This document shows positions 15,508 through 30,037 of a stretch of DNA of 49,836 nt, in pieces. The DNA lies in assembly GCF_005144475.1 (NCBI RefSeq), contig NZ_SWJZ01000072.1:1-49836 (forward strand). Direction: 5' to 3'. The translations under genes and the position numbers were made by a program. Origin of the DNA: Rhodobacter capsulatus. Its GTDB lineage: Bacteria > Pseudomonadota > Alphaproteobacteria > Rhodobacterales > Rhodobacteraceae. The first letter of the stretch is position 1. Each line of letters begins with the position of its first letter. Below the pieces are notes generated by a model, which worked only from the letters and a program-made list of their open reading frames with translations, did not search any database and was not told where the DNA came from.

Positions 15508-15850
15508 GATGCGGTTTACTCCGGCATGAGATGGCTCCGACTTGAGCGCGCACTTTAGACGGCTTTGCGGAAACCGCAGGGCGACGACTTGCCGCAAGGC
15601 CGGATTTTCGCGCAAACGCCCGCAGGCGGGTGGATTTTGCGCGCAGGAACCGCGGATTGGCGGGCGCTGTGGCGATGCGCCGCCTTTGCCCGGCGGCGGC
15701 GGGAGGCGGAAAACCGCCGGCGGGTCCGGGGGCCGCGCGGCCGGGCGAGTCGCGCCTTGGCCCTGCCGCGCGGGGGAAAGGCGCCGATCCGGGCTTCTCC
15801 CTTCCCTCTTGCCCCCCGATCCGGTAGGGATTTGCAAAACGGAGGCTCCG
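15508..15850. other. Alkane monooxygenase-ftsY divergent intergenic region
   Basis: This 343-bp gap separates two divergent starts. It is very GC-rich, with several short hairpins (for example CCCGC AGG GCGGG near 15620). I find no confident promoter, operator or small gene; the ORFs crossing it have no ribosome-binding sites and atypical Arg/Ala-rich composition. Confidence 0.6.
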
Positions 15851-17245
15851 ATGTCGTTCTTCAACAAGCTGAAGTCCCGGCTGACCCGCTCGTCCTCGAA
15901 GATCGAGGAAGGGCTTGACGCGATCATCGCCGAGGCCCCGGACACCACGCCGGAGGCGGAAACCGAAGCTGTGGCCGAAGCCCCTGTCGCGCCGGTGGCG
16001 GCGCCGGAGCCTGTGGCCGTGCCGGAGCCCGCGCCCGCGCCCGTGCCGGAGCCTGCGCCTGTGGCAGAGCCCGAGCCTGTGGCTGAACCGGAGCCTGTAG
16101 CTGTGGTGGAGCCCGAGCCTGTGGCTGAACCGGAGCCTGTAGCTGTGGTGGAGCCGGAGCCTGCGCCCGTGGCGGAACCGGAGCCGGTGGCGGACCCCGA
16201 ACCCGCGGCGGAGCCCGAGCCTGCCAAACGCGGGTTCTTCGGGCGTCTGCTGGGGCGCGGCGGCAGCGGGTCTGAGCCGGAGCCCGAACACGAGCACGAA
16301 CCCGAAGCGGAAACCGAACCTGCGGTGGTGGCGTCCGCGGTGGCCTCTGCCGCGGCGGCGGGGCATCCGGGTCTGCTCGGCCGTCTGGTCAGCCGTCCCG
16401 ACGTGCCGCGCCGGGTGCTCGATGATGCGATGCTCGAAAGCATCGAGGATCTGCTGATCGGCGCCGACATGGGCGTGGATACGGCGCTTCGGGTGACGGC
16501 GAACCTGGCCGAGGGGCGGATGGGGCGCAAGCTTTCCGTGCCCGAGCTGAAGGACATCCTGGCCGCCGAAGTGGCGCGGATCATGGAGCCGGTGGCGCGG
16601 CCGATGCCGCTTTATGCGCGCCGCCCGCAGGTGGTGCTGGTGGTGGGCGTGAACGGCTCGGGCAAGACCACGACGATCGGCAAGCTGGCGTCGCAGTTTC
16701 GTGCGGCGGGCAAGTCGGTGATCATCGCGGCGGGCGACACCTTCCGCGCCGCGGCGGTCGAGCAGCTGAAGGTCTGGGGCACCCGCGCCGGGGTGCCGGT
16801 GATGACCGCGCCCGAGGGGGCGGACCCGGCCTCGCTGGCCTTTGACGCGCTCAATCGCGCGACGGCCGAGGGGGTGGATCTGTTGATGATCGACACCGCC
16901 GGGCGGTTGCAGAACCGCACCGACCTGATGGAGGAGCTGGCGAAGATCGTGCGGGTGATCCGCAAGATCGACGAGTCCGCGCCGCATAACACACTTTTGG
17001 TGCTGGATGCGACGACCGGGCAGAATGCGCTGATGCAGGTCGAGGTGTTCCGCAAGATTTCCGATGTCTCGGGGCTGGTGATGACGAAGCTGGACGGCAC
17101 GGCGAAGGGCGGCGTGCTGGTGGCGCTGGCCGACAAGTTCGGCCTGCCGATCCATGCGATCGGCGTGGGCGAGCAGATCGACGATCTGTCGCCCTTCGAT
17201 CCGGAGGAATTCGCCGCCGCGCTGGTGGGGATCGACCAGGACTGA
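15851..17245 (+). CDS. ftsY: FtsY, signal recognition particle receptor
   Basis: A 464-residue SRP GTPase docking ribosome-nascent chain-SRP complexes at the membrane. A basic N-terminus ([17 protein letters not shown]) is followed by an acidic Pro/Glu/Val/Ala repeat domain (residues about 30-140), then the NG domain with [15 protein letters not shown] (P loop near 268), [16 protein letters not shown] and [10 protein letters not shown]. The NG domain has normal length; the acidic region is expanded by near-perfect 42-bp duplications. GGAGG stands 5 bp before the ATG. Confidence 0.96.
16067..16150 (+). repeat. 42-bp tandem duplication inside ftsY
   Basis: Two adjacent 42-bp units (16067-16108 and 16109-16150), each starting GAGCCCGAGCCTGTGGCTGA, are identical at the DNA level and encode a 14-residue [14 protein letters not shown] unit. 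The flanking codons continue the same EP-rich pattern in degenerate form. Identity at silent positions indicates recent slippage or unequal exchange. Confidence 0.85.
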
Positions 17246-18518: not shown

Positions 18519-19316
18519 TCAGAGCTTCGCGAAGCGGCGCCCGATCCGCGCCGCTTCCTCGGCCAGGCCCCAGGGCGGGTTCAGCACCACCATGCCCGAG
18601 CCGATCATCCCGTGGCCTTCGCGCGCCGGCGGGAACCGCACCTCCGAGAGCAGCGCCTCGGGATGATCCGCCACCAGCCCGCGCACCATTGCGCGTTGCG
18701 CCGGGGCCACCGCCACATGCGGCGCGAGGATCGGATACCAGAGCGCGATGACGCCGACATTCCACTTCCGCGCCAGCTGGCCCACAAGCTTCGGCACGGT
18801 TTCGTAATCCGATTTCACCTCCCACGAGGGATCGATCAGCAGGACCCCGCGGCGCGGTGTCGGCGGGCACATCGCCAGCGCCATCTGCAGCCCGTCCTTT
18901 TGATGGAAGATGCCGCCATGCGCCGCCATCGCCACCTTCAGCGCGGCGAATTCCTGCGGATGCAATTCGCACAGCTGCAGCGAATCCACCGGCCGCAGCA
19001 GCGTCGCCGCCAGCAGCGGCGAGCCCGGATAGGCCGCGCGCCCCTGCGCCTTGCGCACCGCGGCAAGCGCCCGCATGTAGGGATGATCGGCGGCAAACCA
19101 GCGCTCGGCTTCGGCGCGCGCGATCCCCGCCGCCGCCTCGCCCGTCTTCGCCGCCTCGGCCCCGTCAAGCGCATAAAGCCCGCGCCCGGAATGGGTTTCC
19201 ATGTAGCTGAGCGGCTTGTCCTTGCGCGTCATGTAGTCGAGCAGCGCCGCCAGCAGCGCATGCTTGTGCACATCGGCCAGATTCCCGGCATGATAGGCAT
19301 GTTGATAAGACAGCAT
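18519..19316 (-). CDS. rlmJ: 23S rRNA (adenine-N6) methyltransferase RlmJ
   Basis: A 265-residue enzyme that methylates A2030 of 23S rRNA with S-adenosylmethionine. The N-terminus LSYQHAYHAGNLADVHKH is the family signature. ETHSGRGLY forms part of the SAM pocket and LIDPSWEVKSDY holds the N6-adenine methyltransferase motif, here DPSW instead of the more usual DPPY/F. NPPWGL occurs near the C-terminus. The start at 19316 has GGGAGG 6 bp upstream. Confidence 0.93.
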   Translation of the reverse strand: MLSYQHAYHAGNLADVHKHALLAALLDYMTRKDKPLSYMETHSGRGLYALDGAEAAKTGEAAAGIARAEAERWFAADHPYMRALAAVRKAQGRAAYPGSPLLAATLLRPVDSLQLCELHPQEFAALKVAMAAHGGIFHQKDGLQMALAMCPPTPRRGVLLIDPSWEVKSDYETVPKLVGQLARKWNVGVIALWYPILAPHVAVAPAQRAMVRGLVADHPEALLSEVRFPPAREGHGMIGSGMVVLNPPWGLAEEAARIGRRFAKL

Positions 19317-19374
19317 CAAAGCCTCCCTTTGCGCCTTCCTGACCTGACCGGGCCCGGGGCGCAAGCGCCGCCTG

Positions 19375-19440
19375 TTCACCTTGGTCGAAATATCCCGGGG
19401 GGAATTGGCCGCAGGCCAAGGGGGGCAGCGCCCCCGCCTC
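19375..19440. repeat. Half-copy of the TATTT intergenic repeat
   Basis: TTCACCTTGG..GAAATATCCCGGGGGG followed by AATTGGCC and AGGCCAAGGGGGG closely matches the right arm of the palindrome at 10655-10710, but no left arm is present. It lies between rlmJ and the CcsR array. Confidence 0.7.
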
Positions 19441-19445
19441 CTCGC

Positions 19446-19489
19446 AAAAGAAAACGGCGGCGCTCAGGGAGGAGGAGAGAGCGCCGCCG
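19446..19489 (-). terminator. Intrinsic terminator ending the CcsR array
   Basis: The last hairpin of the array (19455-19489: 10 bp, GGCGGCGCT paired with AGCGCCGCC plus flanking C-G) is followed on the minus strand by TTTTCTTTT (19454-19446). Strong stem plus U-rich tail is a textbook Rho-independent terminator; the loop also carries the CCTCCTCCC motif. Confidence 0.85.
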
Positions 19490-19528
19490 CGATAACCTCG
19501 GCCCAGGGAGGAGGAGAGGGCCTCGGGT
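19455..19528 (-). ncRNA. CcsR-like small RNA unit 4 (two CCUCCUCCC-loop hairpins)
   Basis: Hairpin at 19495-19528 (GGCCC stem with outer ACC/GGT pairs) and hairpin at 19455-19489 (10-bp stem). Each loop reads CTCTCCTCCTCCCT on the minus strand. The second doubles as the terminator of the whole transcript. Confidence 0.8.
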
Positions 19529-19533
19529 ATTCC

Positions 19534-19597
19534 GGTGCCACCCGGGAGGAGGTGGGCAGCACCATTCCGCCGCCCAGGGAGGAGGAGAGGGCGGGCA
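19534..19597 (-). ncRNA. CcsR-like small RNA unit 3 (two CCUCCUCCC-loop hairpins)
   Basis: Hairpin at 19567-19597 (CCGCCC/GGGCGG stem, standard 13-nt loop) and a weaker hairpin at 19534-19563 (GGTGC/GCACC and CCC/GGG separated by a 2x2 mismatch, loop ACCTCCTCCC). The least well-paired unit of the array. Confidence 0.7.
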
Positions 19598-19610
19598 GGA
19601 TCAGGTCGAA

Positions 19611-19684
19611 GACCGGCGGCCTCTGGGAGGAGGACGAGGCCGCCGTCTTCTATCGAAGCCCCAGGGAGGAGGAGAGGGGCTTGA
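19611..19684 (-). ncRNA. CcsR-like small RNA unit 2 (two CCUCCUCCC-loop hairpins)
   Basis: Hairpin at 19653-19684 (AAGCCCC/GGGGCTT stem, standard loop) and hairpin at 19611-19647 (GGCGGCCTC/GAGGCCGCC perfect 9 bp, loop GTCCTCCTCCCA). Stem sequences are unrelated to the other units while the loop is kept, showing selection on the loop. Confidence 0.8.
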
Positions 19685-19717
19685 TCCGGTGTCCGGCAGA
19701 TGGGGCCGGTATGGGGT

Positions 19718-19791
19718 GGCGGCATCCTCAGGGAGGAGGAGAGAGGATGCCGCCGATCTCCGAGACCCAGGGAGGAGGAGAGGGTCTCCGG
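19718..19791 (-). ncRNA. CcsR-like small RNA unit 1 (two CCUCCUCCC-loop hairpins)
   Basis: The hairpin nearest the DUF1127 gene (19760-19791) has stem GAGACCC/GGGTCTC plus two outer pairs; the next (19718-19754) has a 12-bp perfect stem containing GGCGGCATCCT/AGGATGCCGCC. Both loops read CTCCTCCTCCCTG on the minus strand. Unit 1 starts 10 bp after the DUF1127 stop codon, so it is cut from the same transcript. Confidence 0.85.
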
Positions 19792-19800
19792 AAGTCTGTT

Positions 19801-20004
19801 CTACTTGCCGTAGGCCGCTTCCAGCGCGATGCGGGTCAGCATCGAGCGGTGCATGCCAAGATCGTTCAGCTCGCGGTTCGACAGCGAGCGCAGTTCCGCC
19901 AGCGTCTGGCGATAGACCTTGCGGCGGGCCAAGGCCTCGCGGATCGAGGCCAGAAGATTGGAAAAACCGCTCTCGGTCGTCCGGATGTCGCTGACCAGTG
20001 CCAT
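19801..20004 (-). CDS. ccaF1: DUF1127 protein, CcaF1-like
   Basis: Encodes 67 basic residues. The C-terminal half (RQTLAELRSLSNRELNDLGMHRSMLTRIA) is the DUF1127 (YjiS-like) motif. In R. sphaeroides a DUF1127 protein called CcaF1 is, to my knowledge, the first gene of the transcript giving rise to the CcsR small RNAs and binds RNA to affect their processing. The same order is seen here: DUF1127, then hairpins with CCUCCUCCC loops. A heat-shock-type promoter lies upstream. The symbol is given by synteny and family. Confidence 0.88.
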   Translation of the reverse strand: MALVSDIRTTESGFSNLLASIREALARRKVYRQTLAELRSLSNRELNDLGMHRSMLTRIALEAAYGK

Positions 20005-20307
20005 CGGTCGTGTTCTTTCGTTCGTGTCGTCTTGGGGTTTAGCTTCGGACCGTCCGGCTGTCGCTGTGGTGCACCGTCGCTGTTGGGGCTAACATGGCCC
20101 GATTGCTGCGGCTGCACAATGGGCGGCGGGGGCAATGCTGCCTTGCGGAAAATGCATAACGGATTCTGACCTGAATCCGCCTCCAAACTGGATTAATTCC
20201 ACATTGGACCGCGCAAATATCGTGCAAATCTTGCTTGGCCCGGGGGCGCCCCCTTGCAGCCCGCGACAAATGCGCCACAGTCCCCGGCAAATCGACAGGA
20301 GAGAGCC
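20005..20307. other. DUF1127-mrp divergent intergenic region
   Basis: 303 bp between divergent starts. It holds the heat-shock-like promoter at 20091-20119 and a small inverted repeat GGATTC-N6-GAATCC at 20161-20178. The mrp side is AT-richer (20180-20235) but I see no promoter hexamers with good spacing. The mrp ribosome-binding site is ACAGGAGAGAG. Confidence 0.6.
20091..20119 (-). promoter_or_regulatory. RpoH-type promoter for DUF1127-CcsR
   Basis: On the minus strand TTGTGC (20119-20114), a 16-bp spacer and CCATGTT (20097-20091) match the TTG...CCATnT pattern of the RpoHI/RpoHII heat-shock sigma factors of Rhodobacter. It predicts a transcript start near 20084, leaving an 80-nt leader. 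The CcsR locus of R. sphaeroides is known to be RpoHI/RpoHII-dependent. Confidence 0.55.
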
Positions 20308-21372
20308 ATGACGCTTACGAAGGAATCGGTGCTGGAGGCGCTGCGCAAGACCGCCTTGCCGGGGGGCGGGGATGCGGTCGGCCGCAATCTGGTGCATGCG
20401 CTGGCGGTCGAATCGGGGGTTGTGCGCTTCGTGCTGGAGGGCGCGCCCGAGGCGGAGCTGCTGGCGCTGCGGCCGGTGCTCGAAGGGGCGGTGCGGGCGC
20501 TGCCGGGGGTCAAGAGCCTGTCGGTGGTGATCCCGGCCGGGCCGTCGAAGGCGCCGGGCGGCGGGGTGAAGATCGGCGGCCACGCCAAGCCGCAAGATGG
20601 CCCCCTGCCGGTGCCGGGCGTCGCGCATGTGATCGCGGTGGGCTCGGGCAAGGGGGGCGTGGGCAAATCCACCGTCGCCTCGAACCTGGCCGTGGCTTTG
20701 GCGCGGGCGGGCAAGCGGGTGGGGCTGCTTGACGCCGATCTTTACGGGCCGAGCCAGCCGCGGATGATGGGGACGACGGAAAAGCCCGCCTCGCCCGACG
20801 GGCAGACGATCCTGCCCGTGCGCGCGCATGGGGTGGTGCTGATGTCGCTCGGGCTGATGCTGCGCGAGGACGAGGCGGTGATCTGGCGCGGTCCGATGCT
20901 GATGGGGGCGCTGCAACAGATGCTCGGTCAGGTGAAATGGGACCATTTCGGGCCGCTCGATGTGCTGGTGATCGACCTGCCGCCCGGCACCGGGGATATT
21001 CAGCTCAGCCTGTGCCAAAAGACGGTGCTCGACGGGGCGGTGATCGTGTCGACGCCGCAGGACATCGCGCTTCTGGATGCGAAGAAGGCGCTCGACATGT
21101 TTTCGAAGCTGAAGCTGCCGGTTCTGGGGCTGATCGAGAACATGTCGACCTATGTCTGCCCGAACTGCGGCCACGAGGCGCATCTGTTCGGCCATGGCGG
21201 GGTGGAACACGAGGCGGCGCGGCTCGGTCTGCCGTTCCTCGGCGCCTTGCCGCTGGCGCTTGAAGTGCGCGAGGCGGGGGATGCGGGCCGTCCCGTGGCC
21301 CTGGGCACGGGCGCGGCGGCCGAGGCCTATGCGGCGATCGCGGCGCAGCTGATCGCGGCGGGCGTGGCCTGA
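20308..21372 (+). CDS. mrp: Mrp/ApbC-type iron-sulfur cluster carrier ATPase
   Basis: A 354-residue P-loop scaffold that carries [4Fe-4S] clusters to apoproteins. A short N-terminal DUF59-like domain (residues about 5-75) is followed by the deviant Walker A motif GSGKGGVGKST (112-122), LLDADLYGPSQPRM, DLPPGTGD, and CPNCGHE with the CxxC pair that binds the bridging cluster in the dimer. The start at 20308 has AGGAGAGAG upstream. Monocistronic by appearance, ending at the hairpins near 21418-21510. Confidence 0.93.
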   Translation: MTLTKESVLEALRKTALPGGGDAVGRNLVHALAVESGVVRFVLEGAPEAELLALRPVLEGAVRALPGVKSLSVVIPAGPSKAPGGGVKIGGHAKPQDGPLPVPGVAHVIAVGSGKGGVGKSTVASNLAVALARAGKRVGLLDADLYGPSQPRMMGTTEKPASPDGQTILPVRAHGVVLMSLGLMLREDEAVIWRGPMLMGALQQMLGQVKWDHFGPLDVLVIDLPPGTGDIQLSLCQKTVLDGAVIVSTPQDIALLDAKKALDMFSKLKLPVLGLIENMSTYVCPNCGHEAHLFGHGGVEHEAARLGLPFLGALPLALEVREAGDAGRPVALGTGAAAEAYAAIAAQLIAAGVA

Positions 21373-29751: not shown

Positions 29752-29794
29752 GGGCCGCTTCCGCGGCGCCCCTCGCGCCCCGGAAAGGGTGAAT

Positions 29795-29964
29795 GTCCAA
29801 GCAGGTCTCCTGGCTCGCGGGTCTTGGCGGCGTCGGCCTTCCCGGGCGGGCCCAGTGGCATGTCGACGTCGCTCGCCGCTCACAGTTGCGGGGGCAGCCG
29901 CGGTCTGGGCTCGGGGGCCGTTCCGCGTTCCCTTTCAATCCGGCCCGCAGGCCGGAACTTGGAC
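29795..29964 (-). promoter_or_regulatory. Cobalamin (B12) riboswitch
   Basis: On the minus strand, in order: P1 arm GTCCAAG, GAAAGGGAA, the conserved CCCGCAACTGTGAGCGG, GCCACTGGGC, CCCGGGAAGGC, the B12 box AGCCAGGAGACCTGC, and the closing P1 arm CTTGGAC (29801-29795). All core elements of the adenosylcobalamin riboswitch are present with normal spacing. It precedes exbB-exbD-tonB, 335 nt from the exbB start, and would lower expression when B12 is abundant. Confidence 0.93.
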
Positions 29965-30037
29965 GCGAAAAGCCAAATCCAATTCGCCCGCCGCGTCAAG
30001 CCGGAACTGCGACCTGCGGTTGTGGGCCCGCGTCGGG

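Follow-up and report, generated by a model that had tools for sequence, protein, structure and literature searches.

We find that the minus strand of a 49,836-nucleotide stretch of Rhodobacter capsulatus DNA (that whole stretch is hereafter called the window) carries a DUF1127 gene followed by eight hairpins, and the evidence supports the assignment of this locus to the CcsR/cuckoo type (CIN1), as a preliminary description of the sequence had read it. We give a probability of about 0.86 to the reading that the locus is a stress operon transcribed as one RNA, from which anti-Shine-Dalgarno RNAs would be released to act on mRNAs. The array seems to be a further member of the known CcsR/cuckoo family, and the apparently new part seems to be the promoter, whose sequence contains a candidate VtlR/LsrB-type operator through which a LysR-type regulator probably feeds in alongside an RpoH-like core promoter. 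The gene and the array comprise the following features.

19801-20004, minus strand: DUF1127 gene (CcaF1-like), 67 aa, PF06568 match with E = 1.8e-12
19762-19788, minus strand: hairpin 1 (unit 1), 7-bp stem
19718-19754, minus strand: hairpin 2 (unit 1), 12-bp stem, tested for covariation
19656-19682, minus strand: hairpin 3 (unit 2), 7-bp stem
19614-19645, minus strand: hairpin 4 (unit 2), 10-bp stem, variant loop GTCCTCCTCCCA
19570-19594, minus strand: hairpin 5 (unit 3), 6-bp stem
19533-19564, minus strand: hairpin 6 (unit 3), 11 contiguous pairs including G-U (10 in the fold), variant loop ACCTCCTCCC
19500-19522, minus strand: hairpin 7 (unit 4), 5-bp stem
19454-19490, minus strand: hairpin 8 (unit 4), 12-bp stem that is also the terminator stem
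19446-19453, minus strand: terminator tail TTTCTTTT, directly after hairpin 8

All eight hairpins (19454-19788) present CCTCCTCCC in their loops, and the eight exact copies of this motif (19467-19778) share the minus strand. When the window was dinucleotide-shuffled, the mean was 0.71 copies and eight copies never arose (0/100), while the contiguous stems summed to 70 pairs versus 30.4 ± 4.1 with the flanks shuffled (maximum 46; n = 2000); the hairpins that had been drawn from the sequence alone are therefore real. The 376-nt minus-strand segment at 19430-19805 folds with z = -6.57. Six loops have one and the same 13-mer, TCTCCTCCTCCCT, with hairpins 4 and 6 bearing the variants, just as the preliminary description had it. 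Its statement that the stems differ completely was too strong, since hairpins 2, 4 and 8 have a GGCGGC-like outer stem in common. Loop spacings had been given as 39, 67, 40, 47, 34, 37 and 39 bp; we measured 39, 67, 39, 48, 33, 38 and 39 (window locus L004), so three values stood and four were off by one. From hairpin 1 to hairpin 8 the stems contain 7, 12, 7, 10, 6, 11, 5 and 12 contiguous pairs, a short/long alternation. The array does end in the intrinsic terminator proposed for it, hairpin 8 followed by TTTCTTTT, which an automatic scan of 19300-20350 left unflagged because that scan allows loops of 3-8 nt and the loop here has 13. One other terminator site was flagged by the same scan (20158-20181; 0.6 expected).

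The gene that the array follows lies on the same strand, and its PF06568 match bears out the CcaF1-like DUF1127 gene that had been named there; the product is 97% identical to the DUF1127 protein of R. capsulatus DSM 1710, and NCBIfam named no family for it. Flanking the array are an RlmJ-type methyltransferase gene (18519-19379, minus strand) and a divergent Mrp/NUBPL-type P-loop NTPase gene (20254-21372, plus strand). Long open reading frames that overlap on both strands (for example 19381-20169, plus, and 19165-19725, minus) were taken as artefacts of GC-rich repeat composition and set aside. Elsewhere in the window are a cobalamin riboswitch (29783-29977, minus strand; 118.9 bits) and a long open reading frame (15542-17245, plus strand) with a proline/glutamate/valine repeat in the N-terminal half of its product, which we take to be FtsY-like.

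The CcsR/cuckoo assignment fits by the CCUCCUCCC loops, the two-hairpin units, the DUF1127 gene upstream on the same strand and the T-tailed last hairpin, and also by a layout shared with two Cereibacter (R. sphaeroides group) loci in which CcsR1 (RF02791) scores 106.2 bits. These comparison loci are L113 (C. johrii) and L115 (titled Luteovulum azotoformans), there being no sphaeroides-titled locus among the 80 loci described below. As in the CcsR1-4/ccaF1 system of Cereibacter sphaeroides (RF02791), a DUF1127 gene is followed on the same strand by CCUCCUCCC hairpins, eight in each of L113 and L115, but the window differs in that its last hairpin itself carries a T tail and that of L115 does not. 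The search with the Rfam CcsR models that had been suggested as a check fell short in the window: CcsR1 scored 50.5, 45.8 and 38.1 bits (E = 3.4e-11), under the gathering score of 65.3. A CcsR1 gathering match was likewise absent in the three Rhodobacter-group loci tried (L073, L075 and L081, from R. capsulatus, R. aestuarii and Sinirhodobacter), so the Rfam model seems too narrow, and the array extends the known family. The alpha-r14/NfeR1 model (RF02344) scored 49.4 bits in the window versus a gathering score of 58.8. That RNA has the CCUCCUCCC motif in its hairpin loops too, but is reported to be a separate three-hairpin, 123-nt rhizobial RNA with a sigma-70 promoter (PMC10746234). Cuckoo RNAs of CIN1 loci are defined by a short DUF1127 gene with CcsR-like RNAs, according to the definition quoted second-hand in PMC10253847, and this combination is what we find in the window.

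We propose that a single minus-strand transcript from near 20084 would encode the CcaF1-like DUF1127 protein and run on into four two-hairpin small RNAs, which would be cut out of the 3' UTR, with hairpin 8 serving in addition to terminate transcription. Each short-stem/long-stem pair would display CCUCCUCCC loops that mimic the ribosomal anti-Shine-Dalgarno, and by covering purine-rich Shine-Dalgarno sites these loops would lower the translation or stability of chosen mRNAs in oxidative stress. Co-transcription, processing by RNase E and CcaF1, Hfq binding and action on targets are reported for the R. sphaeroides homologue (PMC10253847, PMC8307010, PMC8625941), and by analogy we infer the same here. 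Outside the array, the perfect loop complement GGGAGGAGG occurs at 12 places, three of which lie 2-12 nt before an ATG. Two of these are at the Shine-Dalgarno sites of real genes, one for transketolase (L154:1472-3442, minus strand) and one for a single-domain response regulator (L031:616-1056, plus strand), and the third precedes a 16-codon frame; we regard both genes as candidate targets only. Among the 18 genomes of the genus, 4 (G000, G002, G003 and G016) have an exact transketolase site. A genome-wide shortage of GGGAGGAGG (12 outside the array versus 30 for the reversed pattern) was dropped as an argument because codon context can explain it. When the anti-Shine-Dalgarno of the genus was sought, no 16S turned up in this assembly, and a 21-base pattern matched 0/18 genomes.

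Identical loops on varied stems are also compatible with loops that bind a protein (the DUF1127 protein, Hfq or a ribosomal factor) or act as decoys for one, Shine-Dalgarno pairing not being their main role. We consider this improbable, given that CCUCCU equals the textbook anti-Shine-Dalgarno core and that hairpin 1 is computed to pair strongly with the transketolase Shine-Dalgarno region (-28.6 kcal/mol, a value that excludes the cost of opening the hairpin). In favour of protein-binding loops, CcaF1 of R. sphaeroides is reported to bind RNA (PMC10253847, PMC12501420); against them, the related NfeR1 has two mRNAs reported as validated targets (PMC8844928).

The anti-Shine-Dalgarno reading draws further on the conservation of the array in relatives. 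Named genomes were scanned by protein (136 relatives) and the best 80 loci were kept. Most of their titles are genera that we take to belong to the Rhodobacterales, some others belong to MAGs whose titles say no more than Alphaproteobacteria or Proteobacteria, and Cereibacter johrii JA192 contributes two loci; the 80 are kin by descent, and the counts are not independent. Each locus has at least one loop hairpin behind its DUF1127 gene, with 688 hairpins in total by a crude detector (range 1-17 per locus; 8 in 25 loci and 10 in 23; an even number in 56 and an odd number in 24). Loop pairs were found in 17/18 genomes of the genus, the sole miss being a genome that is 84% complete.

The proposal of four two-hairpin RNAs, originally drawn from loop spacing, was strengthened by alternating stem lengths and ATACC linkers more than by the spacing itself. 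Stems at even positions are longer on average in 23/25 eight-hairpin and 22/23 ten-hairpin loci (45/48 together), with an even-position mean of about 10.8 pairs versus 7.0 and 6.9, and this alternation supports the two-hairpin units. The motif ATACC occurs in 34/167 between-unit linkers, just a fifth of them, and in 0/215 within-unit linkers (ends trimmed); junction 4/5 of the window is without it. Spacing is the lesser support because the distance between loops 6 and 7 (38) resembles the within-pair spacings (33-39). In Szabonella alba (L122), array units 3-5 are consecutive near copies, which suggests that the array grew by tandem duplication, probably recently.

An array found behind the DUF1127 gene in all 80 loci kept, with TTTT at the last hairpin in 49/80 loci (and at other hairpins in 9/608), would also suit a purely cis function, in which a structured 3' UTR merely protects or times the DUF1127 mRNA. 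We hold this to be very improbable. Loop columns carry 1.7-2.0 bits per base versus 0.1-0.5 in the outer stem columns (loop-closing pairs, about 0.75-1.0), and although the loop values arise partly by construction, the loops having been searched by motif, such conservation would be needless for simple protection; the R. sphaeroides RNAs, moreover, are reported to target flhR mRNA (PMC8307010).

At hairpin 2 the stem shows covariation between species. In 18 loci that share one register (15 distinct rows), namely the window plus 17 out of 63 loci extracted, 180/180 cells pair, and two-sided changes occur at 6/12 pairs (17 cells), a number equalled in 1/500 shuffles. The covariation score was matched by 0/500 shuffles, and sliding the partner by 1-3 columns lowered pairing to 41-62%. 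Outside the Watson-Crick core, we counted G-U against A-C pairs on the array strand and compared them with base composition. G-U was in excess in the genus loci (minus strand; 52 vs 28, p = 0.0098) and, among all loci, at even positions (157 vs 39, p = 0.0014) and odd positions (219 vs 94, p = 3e-6), p-values that are generous because the loci are related. This excess on the array strand fits minus-strand transcription. GGA in hairpin loops is a CsrA site, and a functional plus-strand RNA with GGGAGGAGG loops acting as a CsrA sponge was accordingly considered and rejected as exceedingly improbable, since no CsrA match was found in the genome by a search that was positive in 3/14 control genomes and since both the T tail and the excess of G-U over A-C belong to the minus strand.

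Upstream of the DUF1127 gene, two conserved blocks stand at nearly fixed spacing, and the putative promoter comprises the features below.

20143-20157, minus strand: T-N11-A dyad ATGC-N7-GCAA, LysR-type, the predicted upstream half of a VtlR/LsrB-like operator; ATGC arm with its T and C unchanged in 61/61 non-redundant loci
20133-20147, minus strand: VtlR/LsrB-like candidate site CGCAAGGCAGCATTG, differing from the published motif at 3/15 positions and lying at about -63 to -49 relative to the presumed start
20104-20119, minus strand: conserved TTGTGCAGCCGCAGCA, with a -35-like TTG and a second T-N11-A as well; TTGTGC and GCAG invariant in 61/61 non-redundant loci
20091-20096, minus strand: putative -10-like CATGTT, with CAT-TT conserved at a fixed distance

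Transcription would then start near 20084. The VtlR-binding motif of Brucella is reported as CAATGCAGCCATGCA (PMC12595884), and the first conserved block, oriented as TGCATGGCTGCATTG, matches it, a likeness that was noticed only after the block had been seen. With at most 3/15 mismatches the motif is present in 71/80 loci, in one orientation throughout, and in 69 of these 71 it lies 27-28 nt 5' of TTGTGCA (the anchor was not found in the remaining two). Controls at the same threshold gave 2/838 other windows of those loci and 35/1600 block-shuffled upstreams. The T-N11-A residues of both blocks are invariant across the 61 non-redundant loci, of which the ATGC arm and GCAG alone are free of selection because the anchor was picked on TTGTG and on the site itself. 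The pattern CAATGCNGCCWTGC has a single occurrence in this genome, at the array promoter. Across the 18 genomes of the genus it has 21 matches, spread over 13 genomes, of which 8 fall at arrays and 13 elsewhere (reversed pattern, 0), and 9 of the 17 array-bearing genomes lack it at the array. A tandem T-N11-A is reported for the S. meliloti LsrB site at -61 to -49 (PMC8844928), and the window has such a tandem at 20143-20157 and 20104-20119. The strict form GCAT-N3-TG-N3-T was not found near -61 to -49 in the window, where GCAAGGCAGCATT stands roughly at the expected position; what fits is the relaxed GCA[AT]-N3-[AT]G-N3-T alone, a weaker version of the operator. TTG at -35 and CAT at -10 are conserved and may mark an RpoHI/RpoHII-type promoter; the core of another R. 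sphaeroides DUF1127 gene is reported as TTG and TAT (PMC10673084). No sigma-70-type promoter was flagged by the scan of 19300-20350.

We compared four ar15 promoters, from Rhizobium leguminosarum plasmid pSK03 and Sinorhizobium sp. K101, two loci where a VtlR-type gene is linked to trxB; we take ar15 to be AbcR, which fits the position reported for AbcR1/2. The gene order in pSK03 is trxB, the annotated VtlR gene, two ar15 copies and an ArsR-type gene. At -61, the strict form stands in 2/4 of these promoters and the relaxed form in 3/4, with Sinorhizobium copy 2 having neither. Read by eye, ATGC-N7-GCAT is present in R. leguminosarum copy 1 and Sinorhizobium copy 1, and the T-N11-A dyad of the window resembles the dyad of these rhizobial abcR promoters. 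Against this likeness, the 15-base motif at 3 mismatches occurs at only 1/4 of the ar15 promoters, on the opposite strand, and two further matches lie 5' of the regulator gene, within the annotated trxB in pSK03 (K101 is unannotated there).

We looked in this genome for a LysR gene adjoining trxB and found none. A trxB match was present in 66/76 genomes of the class, and inspection of 30 of these loci with a crude signature gave one trxB-linked LysR gene, in genome G056. Rfam placed no AbcR beside it, the 15-base motif at 3 mismatches was absent at that trxB locus, and NCBIfam gave the protein no above-cut-off family among the 25 best. Searching this genome with the G056 protein returned G000:C154:79704-80567 at 47% identity (next best, 31%), and the reverse search from this C154 regulator returned the G056 protein at 47% (next best by E-value, 27%), making the two reciprocal best matches. 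The C154 regulator is 42% identical to the annotated R. leguminosarum VtlR over 292 aa; we consider it VtlR-like, and it may be either a true orthologue or a near relative of LsrB/VtlR. One close copy is present in 25/25 family genomes searched (18 of the genus and 7 others, one of the 7 with an in-frame TAG) and in 0/16 other genomes of the class at E 1e-90, a limit that is strict because the G056 protein itself scores 9e-83.

The promoter site may instead be bound by another LysR-type regulator than the VtlR/LsrB-like one. T-N11-A is generic to LysR-type regulators, of which this genome has 17 matches (an OxyR, for example), and the rhizobial ar15 promoters are a poor fit to the 15-base motif. 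We nevertheless rate this as somewhat unlikely, given the recurrence of VtlR-motif likeness in 71 of the 80 loci, the relaxed motif and ATGC-N7-GCAT at three and two of the four ar15 promoters, respectively, and a DNA-binding region in the C154 regulator that is identical to that of the annotated VtlR at 51/66 positions.

On balance we lean towards a VtlR/LsrB-type regulator that would control the DUF1127-CcsR operon across the Rhodobacterales. What we see has in common with the VtlR/LsrB-AbcR-DUF1127 regulon reported from the Rhizobiales a similar operator at about -62, the same type of regulator, and DUF1127 and small-RNA targets; it differs in that the regulator gene here lies apart from trxB and a CcsR-type array takes the place of AbcR as the small RNA. 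If such control is true, the Rhizobiales circuit of a LysR-type regulator acting on a DUF1127 protein and a small RNA would be an ancient alphaproteobacterial module whose small RNA has been swapped (AbcR in rhizobia, here an anti-Shine-Dalgarno array), and LsrB would extend beyond the Rhizobiales, contrary to its reported uniqueness to that order (PMC11975290). The promoter result outweighs the array, as it proposes an upstream regulator of CcsR/CcaF1 and would tie together the DUF1127-small-RNA circuits of the Rhizobiales and Rhodobacterales. No paper linking CcsR with VtlR/LsrB was among the matches listed, although the cuckoo paper and two CcsR/CcaF1 papers, which they did not cover, may carry this link. 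In the available part of PMC12501420, CcaF1 and LsrB are both present, LsrB solely in a reference title.

Two minor observations concern single loci. Genome G010 has a solitary two-hairpin copy (L011; C34:215819-215865) away from its main array, for which the crude pattern gave no adjoining DUF1127, as was also the case at the L005 and L028 arrays. The VtlR-like regulator at L210:1459-2373 (minus strand) matches PDB 9hh1, a LysR family structure, with E = 3.2e-74.
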